A program made the translations under genes and the position numbers. A DNA stretch of 64,000 bases, from positions 8,556,001-8,620,000 of the forward strand of contig NZ_CP063808.1 in assembly GCF_018128905.1 (NCBI RefSeq), given 5' to 3'. This document shows, in pieces, positions 40,989 to 47,491 of this stretch; position 1 is the stretch's first letter, and each line of letters opens with the position of its first letter. This DNA is from Streptomyces sp. A2-16. GTDB taxonomy: Bacteria; Actinomycetota; Actinomycetes; Streptomycetales; Streptomycetaceae. The notes beneath the pieces are model-generated. The model searched no databases, was not told the DNA's origin, and saw only the letters and a list, made by a program, of their open reading frames with translations.

Positions 40989-41942
40989 ATGCCGCAGACC
41001 GAGACACCAGGCACCGAGGCAGTCCCGGACAAACGGCTGCGCTGGTGGACCGAGCTGCCCCTGATCCTGCTGGTGTACGCCTGCTACAGCGCCGGACGGC
41101 TCCTGGCCAGGGGCGATGTCACGGGCGCCGTGGACCACGGCCTGACGATCCTGAAGATCGAGAAGGTCCTCCGCATCAACGCCGAGCACCCGCTGAACCG
41201 GCTGTTCACCAGCGAGACCTGGATCGGCGTGCCGGCGGACTTCTGGTACGCCTCGCTGCACTACCTGGTCACACCGGCCGTCCTCATCTGGCTCTTCCGC
41301 TCCCACGCCGTGCACTACCGCGCGGCCCGCACCTGGCTGATGACGTCCACGTTCATGGGCCTGATCGGCTTCACCCTGCTGCCCACCTGCCCGCCCCGCC
41401 TCCTCTCGGCGAGCCACGGCTTCGTCGACACGATGGCCCAGTACAGCTCGTACGGCTGGTGGGGCGGCGAGGCGAGCGCACCGCGGGGCATGGGCGGCAT
41501 GACCAACCAGTACGCGGCCATGCCGAGCCTGCACGTCGGCTGGGCGCTGTGGTGCGGTGTGATCCTGTGGCGCTACGGCAGGACGCGTACGACGAAGGCG
41601 GCGGCCGTCGCCTATCCGCTGATCACCACGATCGTGGTCATGGGCACCGCGAACCACTACTTCCTCGACGCGGTCGCGGGCGCGGCCGTGATGGGGCTCG
41701 GGTTCCTGCTCGCGCCGTACGTCAGCCGGGTCGCGGAGCGGGCCGCGGCGGGCATCCGCGCCCGGATAGCCCCCGTCTCGGTCGCCTCTCGGGACACAGA
41801 GCCCTCAATTGTCAGTGGCGGATGCCAGACTTCCGCGGGTGAGCACATTCCACGGCAGCGCGAGTCACGCTTCGGAAGCGGAGTCGAGCCCAGTGCCGCT
41901 CCCACGGACGCGGGGGACGGCGCTCCGGCAGCGGCTCGCTGA
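40989..41942 (+). CDS. PAP2-superfamily integral membrane phosphatase/transferase
   Basis: A 317-residue protein with about six membrane helices. The active-site motifs are PSLHVGWALW and ANHYFLDAVAG, those of PAP2 lipid phosphatases and inositol-phosphoceramide-synthase-like enzymes. The C-terminal 60 residues are hydrophilic and low-complexity, and their coding region overlaps the start of the next gene. AAGGGGGA precedes the ATG. Probably a lipid-phosphate phosphatase or phospholipid head-group transferase of the cell membrane. Confidence 0.87.
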   Translation: MPQTETPGTEAVPDKRLRWWTELPLILLVYACYSAGRLLARGDVTGAVDHGLTILKIEKVLRINAEHPLNRLFTSETWIGVPADFWYASLHYLVTPAVLIWLFRSHAVHYRAARTWLMTSTFMGLIGFTLLPTCPPRLLSASHGFVDTMAQYSSYGWWGGEASAPRGMGGMTNQYAAMPSLHVGWALWCGVILWRYGRTRTTKAAAVAYPLITTIVVMGTANHYFLDAVAGAAVMGLGFLLAPYVSRVAERAAAGIRARIAPVSVASRDTEPSIVSGGCQTSAGEHIPRQRESRFGSGVEPSAAPTDAGDGAPAAAR

Positions 41943-43017
41943 GCTGCGCGGGCCCGGGACAGCGGCCAAGGCACTGGACGCGCGCGCCCTCGCGGCCCTC
42001 GCCGCCAACCCCGGCTGCAAGCGGCGCGCGATCCTCGACGGCGCCGGGGTGAACAAGACGGCGCTGGCGAGCGCGCTGGGCGCGCCGTCCGCCTTCGGCC
42101 AGTCGCAGTTCGCCCTGACGCGGGGCAACGCCTTCGAGGCGAAGGTCAAGGCGGACGGCGGCGCGGAGCTGCTGCGGCTGGTGCACGAGCGGCTGGACCG
42201 CGGCGCCGAGCCCCCCGCCCGCGCGCAGGTCCCCGATCTCACCGCGATCGGCCCCGAGGGCCGTACCGCGCGTACGGCACTGGCCCTGCGCGAGGCCACC
42301 GAGGCCTCGGGCACCTGGACGCTGCTCGACCACCCCATGCTCGCTCTCGACGTCGCCGGCTCCCCCGCGTTCCTGGAGCCGGACGCGGTGGTCGTGCACC
42401 CCGACGGCAGCTGGACGGTCGTGGAGATCAAGTCCTTCCCGATGCTGGACGGTTCGGCGGACCCGTCGAAGGTCGGCGCCGCCGCCCGCCAGGCCGCGGT
42501 GTACGTCCTCGCCCTGGAGGAGGTCGCCGCCCGTCTGGACCCGGCCCCGAAGGTCCGCCACCGGGTCCTGCTGGTGTGCCCCAAGGACTTCTCCAACCTG
42601 CCCACCGCCTCGGCCGTCGACATCCGCAAGCAGCGCGCGGTCACCGCCCGCCAGCTGGTCCGCCTCACCCGCGTCCAGGACATCGCCGACACCCTCCCCG
42701 AGGGCACCTGCTTCGCCCCCGACCTGCCCGTCGCCGAACTGACCGCGGCGGTCGAGTCGGTCCCGGCGACCTACGCCCCCGAGTGCCTGTCCGCGTGCGA
42801 ACTGGCCTTCCACTGCCGGGACCGCTCCCGCGCGGACGGCGCGGTGACCTCCCTGGGCCGCTCGGTGCGCGCGGAGCTGGGCGGTCTGACGACGGTGGAA
42901 GACGTGCTGGCGGCGGCCCGCGGCGAGGCCTGCGATCCGGACGACCCGGCGGTGGCGGCGCTGCGCAGAGCGGCACAGCTGCGGGCGGAGGCCCTGGGGG
43001 TGACGGCATGTCGCTGA
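41839..43017 (+). CDS. RecB-type nuclease with Cas4/AddB-like four-cysteine Fe-S pattern
   Basis: A 392-residue protein (numbering from the GTG at 41839). The PD-(D/E)XK core is complete: GNAFE near residue 96, D182 in EPD, E197-x-K199 in VVEIKSF, and the QxxxY helix motif Q218-AAV-Y222. One Cys (C60, NPGCKRR) lies before the core and three after it (C316-x3-C320-x5-C326), the 1+3 arrangement that holds a 4Fe-4S cluster in Cas4, AddB and Dna2. The start is uncertain: GTG 41893 with GGAG upstream is an alternative. Either way it overlaps the PAP2 gene. First gene of a three-gene operon with the SF1 helicase. Confidence 0.82.
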   Translation: MSTFHGSASHASEAESSPVPLPRTRGTALRQRLAELRGPGTAAKALDARALAALAANPGCKRRAILDGAGVNKTALASALGAPSAFGQSQFALTRGNAFEAKVKADGGAELLRLVHERLDRGAEPPARAQVPDLTAIGPEGRTARTALALREATEASGTWTLLDHPMLALDVAGSPAFLEPDAVVVHPDGSWTVVEIKSFPMLDGSADPSKVGAAARQAAVYVLALEEVAARLDPAPKVRHRVLLVCPKDFSNLPTASAVDIRKQRAVTARQLVRLTRVQDIADTLPEGTCFAPDLPVAELTAAVESVPATYAPECLSACELAFHCRDRSRADGAVTSLGRSVRAELGGLTTVEDVLAAARGEACDPDDPAVAALRRAAQLRAEALGVTACR

Positions 43018-44633
43018 TCGCCACCCTGGCCCGGCTGGAAGCCGTGAGCACCGGCCGCGCCCAGCCCGCCGCGACCGTCCGGCACCGGCATCTCTCCGAC
43101 CACCCCCTCGTCCTGGTCCCGCTCACCACCGCGGGCGAGGCCGGTGCCCCACTGGGCGCGCTCGTCGGCACCGACCGGGACGCCCCGCACCTCCTGGTCG
43201 TACCGCAGCCGCGCGACCGCGACCTCAGGTTCGCGTTCCTGGCCGAGCTGGCGGACATCGTGCTGCCGTACCTCGACGCCTACGCCGAGTCGGTGGAGGC
43301 CGCCGAGCGCAACGAGACCGATCCGGAGACCGGCAAGCGGGTCAAGGTCGAGGTCGAACTGTGCGCGGACGCCCCGCAGCTGATCCTGCCGAGCCGCGCG
43401 GGCGTCGATTTCGTACGACTGCTCGGGCGCTCCATGCGTTTTCGGCGCACGGCGGAGCAGGACCCGGAGACCCCGTATCCGGCCCCGCCCCGGGTGCCGT
43501 TGCTGGGCCGGTGGCTGACCCACTTCGGGGAGCGGGCCAGGGTGCCGGGCTCCTCGCTGCTGCCGGCGATGACTGACCTGCTGGCCCGGCACTGGTGCAC
43601 CGGGCAGTCCACCCTGGAGGACCAGCACCTGGGCGCGCTGCTGGCGTGGATCGACCCGCCCGAGGGCCGTTCCGGCGCCGAGGCCGCGCTGGAGGCCGAG
43701 CTGGCCCGCGACGCACAGGGCCAGCTGCTGCACCCGCCGGCCGGCCCGGCCACCGACCCGGCGTTCGACAACAAGCTGCTCGCTCCCGCCTTCGAGCGCT
43801 ACAACCGCGCGCGGACCGCCCTGGCCGCCGCCGAGGACGGTCTGGAGGCCGACGACCGGCTGGGCGCGCTCACCGCCGCCGAGCAGGAGATCCGCGCCCT
43901 CGTCCTGAGCCGCACGCGCCCGACCTGGGACGCGGTGTGGCGGGGCCTGGACCTGCTGCGGGCGCTGCCCGAGGGGGCGCATGTCGAGGAGCGGTGGACG
44001 CGCGACCGCTGGTCGTTCACGAGCCACCGCGACCGGGTCGTGGCGGGCGAGCCCCCGCAGCCGCGTCGCGACGACGCGGTCACCGCCGCCAACAAACTCG
44101 CCTCGCGCGAGCGCGAACAAGCGCGCCTGGAGGCGCAGGAGGCGCTCGACGACCCGCTGGTGATGGCGGGGCGACGGCTGGCCGGGGAGGCGTTCGCCGG
44201 GGAGGTCACGGACGTCGTGATGACGTACAGCGAGGGCAAGCGGCCGAGCCCGCGCCCGCTGGTGACCGTGCGGACCGACGACCGGCCGCATCTGGGCGAG
44301 CGGGCCAAGGTGTACCGCTCGCTGGGCGGCAAGCCGCAGTCGGCGGAGTTCGTGGGGTACGAGGACTCCGCCGAGGACTTTCCCGACGGCTCCGCCGACG
44401 GCAGCGTGCTCGTCGTCCTCAAGATCCTCGACAAGATGGGCCGCGGCAAGGAGCCGGAGACCGGGTCCGTACCCGAGAAGGGCGACCGGGTGTGCTTCAC
44501 GCTGTTCGAGCACGAGCAGCGGGGCGGCGCGAAGCTGCCCGACCCGGAGGACACGCCGTGGACGCACGGCGGGCCGCCCGGTGAGGCCGTGCAGGAGACC
44601 GCCGACCCCGTGACGCCGGAGGACGTGCTGTGA
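43008..44633 (+). CDS. Unknown protein between nuclease and helicase; possible beta-barrel/stalk subunit
   Basis: A 541-residue cytoplasmic protein, acidic, with long Ala/Glu/Arg helices in the middle (about residues 210-400) that could form a coiled stalk. The C-terminal beta-rich region (about 400-510) contains GEVTDVVMTYS, VTVRTDD and SVLVVLKILDK. Its position, and the strand-rich region after helices, recall the stalk and 1B barrel inserted in Upf1/Dna2-type helicases, here possibly a separate subunit; this is inference. It overlaps the nuclease gene by 10 bp and the helicase gene by 4 bp. Confidence 0.75.
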   Translation: MSLIATLARLEAVSTGRAQPAATVRHRHLSDHPLVLVPLTTAGEAGAPLGALVGTDRDAPHLLVVPQPRDRDLRFAFLAELADIVLPYLDAYAESVEAAERNETDPETGKRVKVEVELCADAPQLILPSRAGVDFVRLLGRSMRFRRTAEQDPETPYPAPPRVPLLGRWLTHFGERARVPGSSLLPAMTDLLARHWCTGQSTLEDQHLGALLAWIDPPEGRSGAEAALEAELARDAQGQLLHPPAGPATDPAFDNKLLAPAFERYNRARTALAAAEDGLEADDRLGALTAAEQEIRALVLSRTRPTWDAVWRGLDLLRALPEGAHVEERWTRDRWSFTSHRDRVVAGEPPQPRRDDAVTAANKLASREREQARLEAQEALDDPLVMAGRRLAGEAFAGEVTDVVMTYSEGKRPSPRPLVTVRTDDRPHLGERAKVYRSLGGKPQSAEFVGYEDSAEDFPDGSADGSVLVVLKILDKMGRGKEPETGSVPEKGDRVCFTLFEHEQRGGAKLPDPEDTPWTHGGPPGEAVQETADPVTPEDVL

Positions 44634-45985
44634 CCACCCAGGCCCCCCGGGACCACCGGGCCTTCGACCCCGGTGCCGAGGCCGCGCGGGCCACCGACGC
44701 GATCCTGGACGACACGCTGCACGGCACCGCCCGCGGTGTCGTCGTCGACTCCCCGCCCGGTGCCGGCAAGTCCACCCTCGTGGTCCGCGCGGCGCTGGAA
44801 CTGGCCGACGCGGGGCGCCCGTTGATGGTGGTGGCGCAGACCAACGCCCAGGTCGACGACCTCGTGCTCAGGCTCGCCGAGAAGAACCCCGAGCTGCCGG
44901 TCGGGCGGCTGCACAGCAGTGACGCCGACCCGTACGACAAGGCGCTGGACGCGCTGGCGAACGTACGGAAGTCGGCGAAGGCGGGTGATCTGACCGGGTT
45001 GCCCGTCGTGATCTCCACGGCCGCCAAGTGGGGGCATGTGAAGACCGACGAGCCGTGGGCGCACGCGATCGTGGACGAGGCGTACCAGATGCGTTCGGAC
45101 TCGCTGCTGGCGGTGGCGGGGCTGTTCGAGCGGGCGCTGTTCGTGGGCGACCCGGGACAGCTGGACCCGTTCGCGATCGTGGGCAGCGAGCAGTGGGCGG
45201 GGCTGTCGTACGACCCGTCGGCCTCGGCCGTGACGACCCTGCTGGCGCACAACCCCGAGCTGCCGCAGCACCGCCTCCCGGTCTCCTGGCGGCTTCCGGC
45301 CTCGGCGGCGCCCCTGGTCTCGGACGCCTTCTATCCCTACACGCCCTTCCGCAGCGGCACCGGCCACGAGGACCGCCGGCTCGCCTTCGCGGTCCCCTCC
45401 GACGGCTCGGGCCCCGACCGGGTGATCGACGCGGCGGCGGAGTCGGGCTGGGGCCTGCTGGAGCTGCCCGCGCGGCACACCCCGCGCACGGACCCCGAGG
45501 CGGTGCGGGCGGTGGCGGCGGTCGTACGGCGGCTCCTGGACCGGGGCGGGGCGGCCACGTCGGAGCGGGCGCCGGACCCGACGCCTCTGACCGCCGAGCG
45601 CATCGCCGTCGGCACCGCGCACCGGGACCAGGCGGCGGCGGTCCGCGCGGCGCTGACCGACCTCGGCGTCATGGACGTCACCGTCGACACGGCGAACCGT
45701 CTCCAGGGCCGCGAGTACGACGTCACGGTCGTCCTCCACCCGCTCTCCGGCCGCCCCGACGCCACCGCCTTCCACCTCGAGACGGGCCGCCTGTGCGTCC
45801 TGGCCTCCCGCCACCGCCACGCGTGCATCGTGGTGTGCCGCGCGGGCGTGAGCGATCTGCTGGACGACTACCCGTCCACGGAACCGGTCCAGCTGGGAAC
45901 CCTGGTGAAGTTCCCGGACGGCTGGGAGGCGAACCATGCGGTACTGGCACGGCTGGCGGAGCACCGGGTGGGGTGGCGGCCCTGA
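44630..45985 (+). CDS. SF1 helicase, Upf1/Dna2-like (AAA domain)
   Basis: A 451-residue ATPase. In order: Walker A SPPGAGKST (residues 41-49), motif Ia VVAQTNAQVDDL, motif II VDEAYQM near 148, motif III GDPGQLDPF near 173, motif IV VSWRLP, motif V ANRLQGREYDVTVV and motif VI ASRHRHACIVV. All are in the Upf1/Dna2 style. It is compact because the accessory 1B/1C insertions are absent. The overlap with the previous gene implies coupled synthesis. The 3' end is duplicated just downstream. Confidence 0.86.
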   Translation: MTTQAPRDHRAFDPGAEAARATDAILDDTLHGTARGVVVDSPPGAGKSTLVVRAALELADAGRPLMVVAQTNAQVDDLVLRLAEKNPELPVGRLHSSDADPYDKALDALANVRKSAKAGDLTGLPVVISTAAKWGHVKTDEPWAHAIVDEAYQMRSDSLLAVAGLFERALFVGDPGQLDPFAIVGSEQWAGLSYDPSASAVTTLLAHNPELPQHRLPVSWRLPASAAPLVSDAFYPYTPFRSGTGHEDRRLAFAVPSDGSGPDRVIDAAAESGWGLLELPARHTPRTDPEAVRAVAAVVRRLLDRGGAATSERAPDPTPLTAERIAVGTAHRDQAAAVRAALTDLGVMDVTVDTANRLQGREYDVTVVLHPLSGRPDATAFHLETGRLCVLASRHRHACIVVCRAGVSDLLDDYPSTEPVQLGTLVKFPDGWEANHAVLARLAEHRVGWRP

Positions 45986-46173
45986 GCGGCGACTCCCACC
46001 CCACCCGCCCGACGGAGTCCGGCCCGCCGCCGGAGGCGGCCGATGGACACAGCCCGGACGGCTGGGAGGCGAACCATGCGGTACTGGCACGGCTGGCTGA
46101 GCACCGGGTGAGGTGGCGGCCCTGAGCGGCGATTGCCCGCGGCCGGCGGGGCACTGGGCGGTGTGGCGGCCCT
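45913..46173. repeat. Decaying duplications of the helicase 3' end
   Basis: An 80-bp segment (45913-45992), including the last 23 codons and stop of the helicase gene, recurs at 46053-46132 with two mismatches, 140 bp downstream and so in another frame. A third, degraded part is at about 46146-46173. The 339-bp stretch 45986-46324 has no other gene. Confidence 0.9.
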
Positions 46174-46324
46174 GAGTCGAGGCCGCTTGCGGGAACACCG
46201 CGTGGGTCGTGGGGCTTGGTGTCGCCGGAGGCGTCCGGCCCTCTTGCATGGGCGCGGGACAATGGACGGTGGCCCATGCATCTACGGGCCGTCGGTACGG
46301 ACGACGTACGAGGAGGATGAAGAC

Positions 46325-46693: not shown

Positions 46694-46730
46694 GCCGTCG
46701 GCACAGCCATGGCCGTAGCCGCCGTAACCG

Positions 46731-46786
46731 CCTGGCCGCCTGGCCGCCTGGCCGCCTGGCCGCCTGGCCGCCTGGCCGCCTGGCCG
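46731..46786. repeat. Seven perfect tandem copies of an 8-bp unit
   Basis: CCTGGCCG is repeated seven times without variation, between GCCGTAACCG and a partial CCGTAAACC. It is in the intergenic gap just before a 16-bp palindrome. Confidence 0.95.
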
Positions 46787-46798
46787 CCGTAAACCATC

Positions 46799-46814
46799 CC
46801 TGGCATATGCCAGG
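46799..46814. promoter_or_regulatory. 16-bp palindrome CCTGGCATATGCCAGG
   Basis: A perfect palindrome 90 bp upstream of the PrimPol-like gene. Its 14-bp core CTGGCATATGCCAG recurs at 61432-61445, upstream of the IclR gene. Confidence 0.6.
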
Positions 46815-46903
46815 TGGGCAAGATACCCCTCTCCCCTCTCTCCTGTCCCGTTTTCCCGCAACTCTGCGGAGCCGCACACTCACACCCGGTAGATGTAAGT
46901 GAC

Positions 46904-47491
46904 ATGAGCACTCGCGACGAACCGTTCTCCGACCGTTTCGACGTCTCCGGTGTCACCGCCGACGGAGCCGCCTGGCTCGCCTCGGCGGGAACGTATCCGC
47001 GCAGCACCCTCTCGCTCTGGGAGGAGCACCCCGCCGCCCCGGTCGTGCTGCCCTGCGGCACCGCGTTCGACGTGGTCAGCGTGCCCGCGATCTTCGGGCG
47101 CCGGATGCTCGACCGGCTGTGGGACGAGGGGCCGGGTTCGGGCCCGGTGGCGACGCTGCGGGGCCGGATGCTGCTGTTCGCGGCGCCGGGCACGGCACAG
47201 CGGCTGCCGTTCCTGCTGCGCTGGGAGGAGTTCGGACGCACGGCCGAGATCCCTCCGCTGCTGTGCCACGGCACCGGCGACGCGGTGACCGTCCCGGCCC
47301 CGCTGAGCGCCGCGAAGTCCGGACTGACCTCGCGCTGGCTGGTCGCCCCTGACACCCGCCACCCCTGGCTGCCGGGCCCGGAGATCCTGGTCTGGGCGGC
47401 CGTCCGGGCGGCCCGCGCGGCGGTGCGGATTTCGATTTTTCCCCCGGCCGATCAGGATGCTAAGGTCTACGACGTCAGCAGGCGCCGCTAG
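46904..47491 (+). CDS. PrimPol-N-like protein of unknown function
   Basis: A 195-residue protein resembling small actinobacterial proteins annotated as bifunctional DNA primase/polymerase N-terminal domains. Recognisable are WLASAGTYPRSTLSLWEEHP, then GPVATLRGRMLLFAAPGTAQ and LLRWEEFG. No catalytic DxD is obvious, so enzymatic activity is doubtful. The last 10 bp, including the TAG stop, are also the 5' end of tRNA-Lys. The smaller protein at 38094-38474 seems distantly related. Confidence 0.68.
   Translation: MSTRDEPFSDRFDVSGVTADGAAWLASAGTYPRSTLSLWEEHPAAPVVLPCGTAFDVVSVPAIFGRRMLDRLWDEGPGSGPVATLRGRMLLFAAPGTAQRLPFLLRWEEFGRTAEIPPLLCHGTGDAVTVPAPLSAAKSGLTSRWLVAPDTRHPWLPGPEILVWAAVRAARAAVRISIFPPADQDAKVYDVSRRR

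Follow-up and report, generated by a model that had tools for sequence, protein, structure and literature searches.

Dna2 combines a nuclease and a helicase in one chain, and the fusions of the TM0106 family (TIGR03491) likewise form a single chain of ~1130–1300 amino acids (aa). In the iron–sulphur (Fe–S) type of nuclease found in Cas4, AddB and Dna2, the usual cysteine spacing is C-x2-C-x5-C, a spacing that TM0106 sequences also show, and in Upf1-like helicases the 1B barrel precedes motif I. No description of TM0106 was found in the open-access literature searched (subscription papers and preprints were outside its scope), nor of the operon reported here, nor of Wadjet together with SbcCD or helicases. 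Here, we describe a three-gene operon, nuc–mid–hel, in a 64,000-nucleotide (nt) stretch of the genome of Streptomyces sp. A2-16 (contig NZ_CP063808.1, positions 8,556,001 to 8,620,000), hereafter the window. An earlier sequence-only reading by a model had interpreted the operon as a divided Fe–S nuclease/superfamily 1 (SF1) helicase machine. That interpretation is supported overall and can be sharpened: the operon is best read as encoding a DNA-end resection or degradation complex, a three-chain Dna2/TM0106-like machine in which the helicase itself appears divided, and which is core in Streptomyces while rarer copies are mobilised with SbcCD and Wadjet. Such a DNA machine, close to core in a leading genus of antibiotic producers, has no name so far. 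For two of its three genes, nuc and mid, searches of Pfam, PADLOC and PHROGs returned no match at E ≤ 1, and NCBIfam gave no meaningful one.

Results and discussion

Conservation of the operon

The three genes overlap as first described (Table 1), and because their order and overlap are conserved across loci, the arrangement is not due to chance. Among 297 class-wide genomes, the nuc, mid and hel families were all present in the identical 48, and the remaining 249 carried none of them, with no partial case. At the level of the order, 137 of 148 genomes carry mid; at that of the genus, 263 of 277 do. All eight genomes without mid that were checked for hel also lacked it. In two genomes hel lies ~40–50 kb away from nuc–mid, yet is still present. 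The trees of the three proteins each resolve into an identical set of four groups, with support close to 1, and their pairwise patristic distances correlate (r 0.84–0.92). Linkage and co-occurrence of the three genes are near absolute. The window-type (core) copy is syntenic and occurs in ~95% of Streptomyces. A distantly related version, with its genes in identical order and a nuclease that keeps the C-x3-C-x5-C spacing described below, was found in another class of the phylum. As no relatives were detected in the viral contigs or phage records searched, a phage origin was set aside. Separately, hel was found apart from nuc–mid in several Micromonosporaceae, and Micromonospora musae carries two hel genes ~37 kb apart on one contig (loci L141 and L161).

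Table 1 Coordinates of the operon genes and their features in the window.
Feature	Position	Strand	Description
nuc	41839..43017	+	PD-(D/E)XK nuclease, 392 aa, start GTG
mid	43008..44633	+	541 aa, start ATG; an RNase-H-like domain at the N-terminus, then a helical stalk and, at the C-terminus, a 1B-like barrel
hel	44630..45985	+	SF1 (Upf1/Dna2-type) helicase RecA core, 451 aa, start GTG
nuc/mid overlap, 10 nt	43008..43017	+	−10 nt in 49 of 86 loci, −4 nt in 28
mid/hel overlap, 4 nt (GTGA)	44630..44633	+	−4 nt in 56 of 86 loci
nuc C60 codon (upstream cysteine)	42016..42018	+	Invariant in 88 of 88 aligned homologues
nuc catalytic core D182 ... E196-x-K198 ... Q218-x3-Y222	42382..42504	+	Motif conservation, 88 homologues
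nuc C316-x3-C320-x5-C326	42784..42816	+	Proposed Fe–S ligands together with C60; invariant
mid residues 31–250	43098..43757	+	Similar to the RNase-H-like exonuclease domain of family-B DNA polymerases
mid residues 388–501	44169..44510	+	Beta barrel; VIA match to domain 1B of Sen1/SETX helicases

The three proteins

Structure prediction places Nuc confidently among the PD-(D/E)XK nucleases of the Cas4/EXO5/AddAB/Dna2 type. Its AlphaFold2 (AF2) model (predicted local distance difference test score, pLDDT, 87; 58 sequences) has the PD-(D/E)XK fold, as anticipated from the sequence, and its nearest solved folds by Foldseek and VIA are MGME1, ACE1, RecE, Cas4, EXO5, lambda exonuclease, AddAB, AdnA and Dna2 (Foldseek 4e-4 for MGME1 and 5e-4 for ACE1, an Argonaute-associated Cas4 protein; VIA Z 10.7 over 204 residues for a Cas4–Cas1 fusion, 9.3 for lambda exonuclease, 9.1 for EXO5 and 8.9 for AddAB). 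Sequence searches of PDB with nuc and mid gave repeat or chance matches only. The RecB-type motifs reported by the sequence-only reading are intact in the window, with the correction that the E-x-K pair is E196-x-K198 rather than E197/K199, and the catalytic residues are kept in most of the 88 aligned homologues (D in 86, E in 82, K in 81, Q in 87 and Y in 86), being lost mainly in the type A clade considered below. The four cysteines never vary. Their order, one upstream and three downstream, is that of Cas4, AddB and Dna2, as had been proposed, but the spacing is one residue longer, with C-x3-C-x5-C found in 173 of 173 cases and C-x2-C-x5-C in none. On these sequence features, nuc likely binds an Fe–S cluster.

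Hel contains motifs I–VI of the Upf1/Dna2 group, in agreement with the sequence-only reading. The motifs lie at residues 44, 69, 149, 173, 219, 358 and 393 and each is kept in 87–88 of 88 homologues, the Pfam families AAA_11 (2e-11) and AAA_12 (6e-8) match, and the closest profile matches in PDB are Dna2 (2e-11), Smubp-2 (2.6e-11) and Upf1 (9e-8). Matches to PHROG 25411 and PLuB_AAA are confined to the helicase core and were rejected as family labels. Only ~43 residues precede motif I, and there is no stalk or 1B barrel there in the same chain.

These missing elements appear, from its predicted structure, to be carried by mid, and the description of the middle protein as a large unknown is thus not borne out. 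The AF2 model of mid (pLDDT 90; predicted template modelling score, pTM, 0.87) ends in a barrel that aligns with the 1B domain of Sen1/SETX helicases (VIA-align Z 8.0 for 8ftm_B; Z 7.6 for 8rao_O, with a root-mean-square deviation (rmsd) of 2.7 over 87 residues), and the assignment is strengthened by the position of 1B before motif I in Upf1-like helicases and by the short N-terminus of hel. The helicase itself therefore appears to be cut between two genes, which refines the earlier statement that nuclease and helicase are separate chains: the genes are indeed three, and the machine appears divided inside the helicase too. The N-terminal domain of mid resembles the exonuclease domain of family-B polymerases (VIA Z up to 9.2, rmsd mostly 3.4–3.9 over ~180 residues, 7–9% identity), a resemblance with no counterpart by sequence. 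In mid, P38-L39-T40 seems to stand where motif I would have its acidic DxE, so this RNase-H-like domain probably serves as a platform rather than an enzyme. When mid was compared with PDB and BFVD by Foldseek, no match fell below 1e-3; the useful signal came from VIA, whose Z values for these matches were only moderately above those of unrelated models. A helicase whose DNA-binding barrel and motor sit in different chains would be unusual, and the idea is directly testable.

The similarity of the mid barrel to Sen1/SETX, together with the Upf1-type motor of hel, could also suggest a machine for RNA or R-loop surveillance, in which the RNase-H-like platform would be joined by a nuclease that cleaves RNA or hybrids. 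We consider this very unlikely, as the nearest folds of nuc are DNA exonucleases, hel is by sequence equally close to Dna2 and Smubp-2 and more distant from Upf1, the catalytic acids of RNase H seem to be absent from mid, and the partners of the mobile copies described below, SbcCD and Wadjet, act on DNA.

Relation to TM0106 fusions

The predicted order of domains in the operon, nuclease, RNase-H-like, stalk/1B and motor, appears to be common to the TM0106 fusions, the RNase-H step being assigned on fold alone. In profile comparisons (hhalign), hel aligned with the TM0106 helicase at E 7.5e-23, nuc with its nuclease at E 0.0028 and the mid C-terminus with its stalk/1B region at E 0.011, in each case better than with the wrong domains; the mid N-terminus did not match the RNase_H_2 part (E 0.71), and neither Pfam nor hhalign detected RNase_H_2 in the operon proteins. 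The TIGR03491 cut-off was not reached by nuc, nor in five operon genomes (G000, G001, G005, G200 and G237), and membership of the family is accordingly not claimed. Across the 297 genomes, TIGR03491 scored above its cut-off in 99, comprising 2 of the 48 operon carriers versus 97 of the 249 others. Its rarity among operon carriers hints that the two are functional replacements, with a complementarity that is significant by genome (p 2.4e-7) and not by genus (p 0.21).

The operon might be considered a true but divergent TM0106 member that was split into genes. The shared domain order, the clearly homologous helicases and the near exclusion of the two systems from each other’s genomes are consistent with such an origin. 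However, neither TIGR03491 nor RNase_H_2 scores, the mid N-terminus remains unaligned, the complementarity weakens at the genus level and, in one genome from another class, the two are found next to each other, making a split member rather unlikely. In the last case (L203:3059-4753), a TM0106-like nuclease/RNase_H_2 gene without a helicase lies directly after a distant version of the operon.

Mobile copies, SbcCD and Wadjet

Extra copies of the operon form three clades (types A, B and C). Type A (L058–L064) is found in genomes that also have the core copy, and its nuclease carries E196L and K198R in five of seven cases, D182Q and K198R in L059, and D182E and K198R in L064, with no loss among the four cysteines or the helicase motifs. 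A damaged site alongside intact cysteines allows a structural role of the presumed cluster to be told apart from a catalytic one. A conserved gene of ~280 aa directly precedes nuc in type A, B and C loci and in many Streptosporangiales and relatives, though it was not found in the tested Streptomyces genomes with the core copy only; its product has a very weak UVR-motif match (examples are L206:10721-11566 and L122:6398-7333).

Types B and C are linked to other DNA-processing genes. A divergently oriented sbcD adjoins the operon in 17 of 17 type B/C loci, which span two clades and several genera, and sbcC lies beyond sbcD in all except one short contig. In 9 of the 17, hel is followed in the same orientation by an operon for Wadjet, a bacterial system directed against plasmids, with a hel-to-JetA gap of ~120–270 nt in eight and of 2.4 kb in L067. 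Wadjet is of type I in L206, L207, L276 and L067/L299 (PADLOC scores in L206: JetA1 8.6e-167, JetD1 5e-134) and of type II in L273, L275, L277, L070 and L090 (JetA2, JetB2 and JetC2; TIGR02677/02678/02680). Jet genes were found in the flanks of 0 of 109 other operon loci (Fisher p 1.5e-9 for enrichment at type B/C loci, uncorrected for phylogeny). Within one clade whose mid proteins are >90% identical, Wadjet is of type I in L206 and L207 but of type II in L273, and the cassette has therefore been exchanged. Four type B/C copies (L274, L299, L206 and L207) lie ~4–16 kb from the ends of finished chromosome or plasmid records, although the L207 record is annotated as circular. In L069 (9910-12147), the slot taken elsewhere by Wadjet holds a RadD/type-I-restriction-like helicase gene, 22 nt after hel.

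Wadjet is reported to be enriched at Streptomyces chromosome ends (PMC10482375), and the neighbourhood could be a mere shared landing site, i.e. a terminal defence island without functional coupling. Occupation of the same slot by two Wadjet types, and the 8 of 17 loci that show no Wadjet (some contigs are short), fit such an explanation; the constant adjacency of SbcD across clades and genera, the short same-strand gaps and the enrichment relative to other operon loci do not. On balance, a shared landing site is possible but doubtful. If the genes are coupled, the island would cover both circular and linear DNA, because linear plasmids and linear DNA escape Wadjet (PMC10586767) and SbcCD restricts hairpin-ended linear plasmids (PMC12624138). 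This linkage offers an answer to how Wadjet users handle linear invaders and the linear product of Wadjet cleavage.

The all-or-none nature of the gene set, and the occurrence of types B and C beside Wadjet and SbcCD, both on plasmids and close to the ends of replicons, may further suggest a dedicated anti-phage or anti-plasmid system that degrades incoming DNA in every lineage, including the core Streptomyces copy. For that copy in particular, the synteny and near-ubiquity within Streptomyces are unlike the patchy distribution typical of defence, nuc and mid have no PADLOC family and no Jet genes lie beside it. A defence role throughout is thus unlikely.

A proposed three-chain machine

We consider it probable that the operon encodes one three-chain machine. 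Nuc would be the Fe–S-type PD-(D/E)XK exonuclease, mid a platform that contributes an apparently inactive RNase-H-fold domain and, from an Upf1-like helicase, the stalk and the DNA-binding 1B barrel, and hel the ATPase motor without stalk and 1B. Together, mid and hel would form a complete SF1B helicase that passes single-stranded DNA to nuc, much as Dna2 and the TM0106-type fusions do within one chain. In Streptomyces, the core copy would most likely trim or resect DNA ends in repair, while the mobile type B/C copies, together with SbcCD (Mre11–Rad50), would destroy linear DNA, including the leftovers of circles cut by Wadjet. The analysis shows directly how the genes are arranged, that they occur all or none, which motifs are conserved, what folds are predicted and that SbcCD and Wadjet are linked to the operon; complex formation, Fe–S binding, DNA as the substrate, polarity and biological role are inferred.

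Several observations weigh against this proposal. The cysteine spacing of nuc differs from the usual one, and type A retains the complex although its nuclease site is damaged. For mid, the 1B and RNase-H assignments are fold comparisons at Z 7–9, where chance arrangements also arise, and the profile E-values of nuc and mid against TM0106 are weak and come from single comparisons. No Wadjet is seen at almost half of the type B/C loci, some of them on short contigs, and there is no Jet match in the window, JetABCD occurring beside type B/C copies only. More tentatively, SbcCD and the three-chain machine with its split helicase may constitute a bacterial Mre11–Rad50 plus Dna2-like resection pair, which in mobile islands would be coupled to interchangeable type I or II Wadjet, so that one island destroys circular and linear DNA; this broader proposal has a clearly lower probability than the machine itself.

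Surroundings of the operon in the window

The conserved neighbours of the core copy, encoding a PAP2 phosphatase, a histidine phosphatase and a GGDEF-EAL protein, were rejected as parts of the operon and attributed to general synteny, since L093–L095 keep the operon without PAP2. In the window, the PAP2 open reading frame (ORF; 40989-41942) extends ~100 nt into the start of nuc, similarly to L092. An 85-nt stretch that includes the hel 3′ end and stop (45913-45997) is repeated 140 nt downstream (46053-46137; 95% identical), with a further partial copy at 46140-46176. Beyond these repeats, ~8 tandem copies of an 8-nt unit (CCGCCTGG) occupy 46720-46796, upstream of the next gene, and an ORF downstream of the operon (46814-47491) matches a Prim-Pol N-terminal domain (E 8e-8).

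Comparison with known systems

Among bacterial multi-chain helicase-nucleases, AdnAB, AddAB and RecBCD resemble the operon in consisting of several chains, but their motors are of the UvrD type while the operon has a single Upf1-type motor, and membership of these families was rejected for this reason. Wadjet (types I and II) and SbcCD are genetic neighbours of the type B/C copies and are different proteins. With the nuclease domains of Cas4, EXO5 and AddB, nuc shares the fold and the one-plus-three order of cysteines; it differs in cysteine spacing and is not scored by Pfam Cas4 or PDDEXK_1. Sen1, SETX and Upf1 share the 1B barrel and the motor motifs, which the operon appears to place in two proteins. 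Dna2, a top PDB profile match of hel, is alike in having an Fe–S-type PD-(D/E)XK nuclease that works with an SF1B helicase, whereas the operon has separate chains and an extra RNase-H-like domain. The TM0106 fusions share the predicted domain order and a homologous helicase with the operon, and differ in that their single chain with C-x2-C is replaced here by three genes with C-x3-C.

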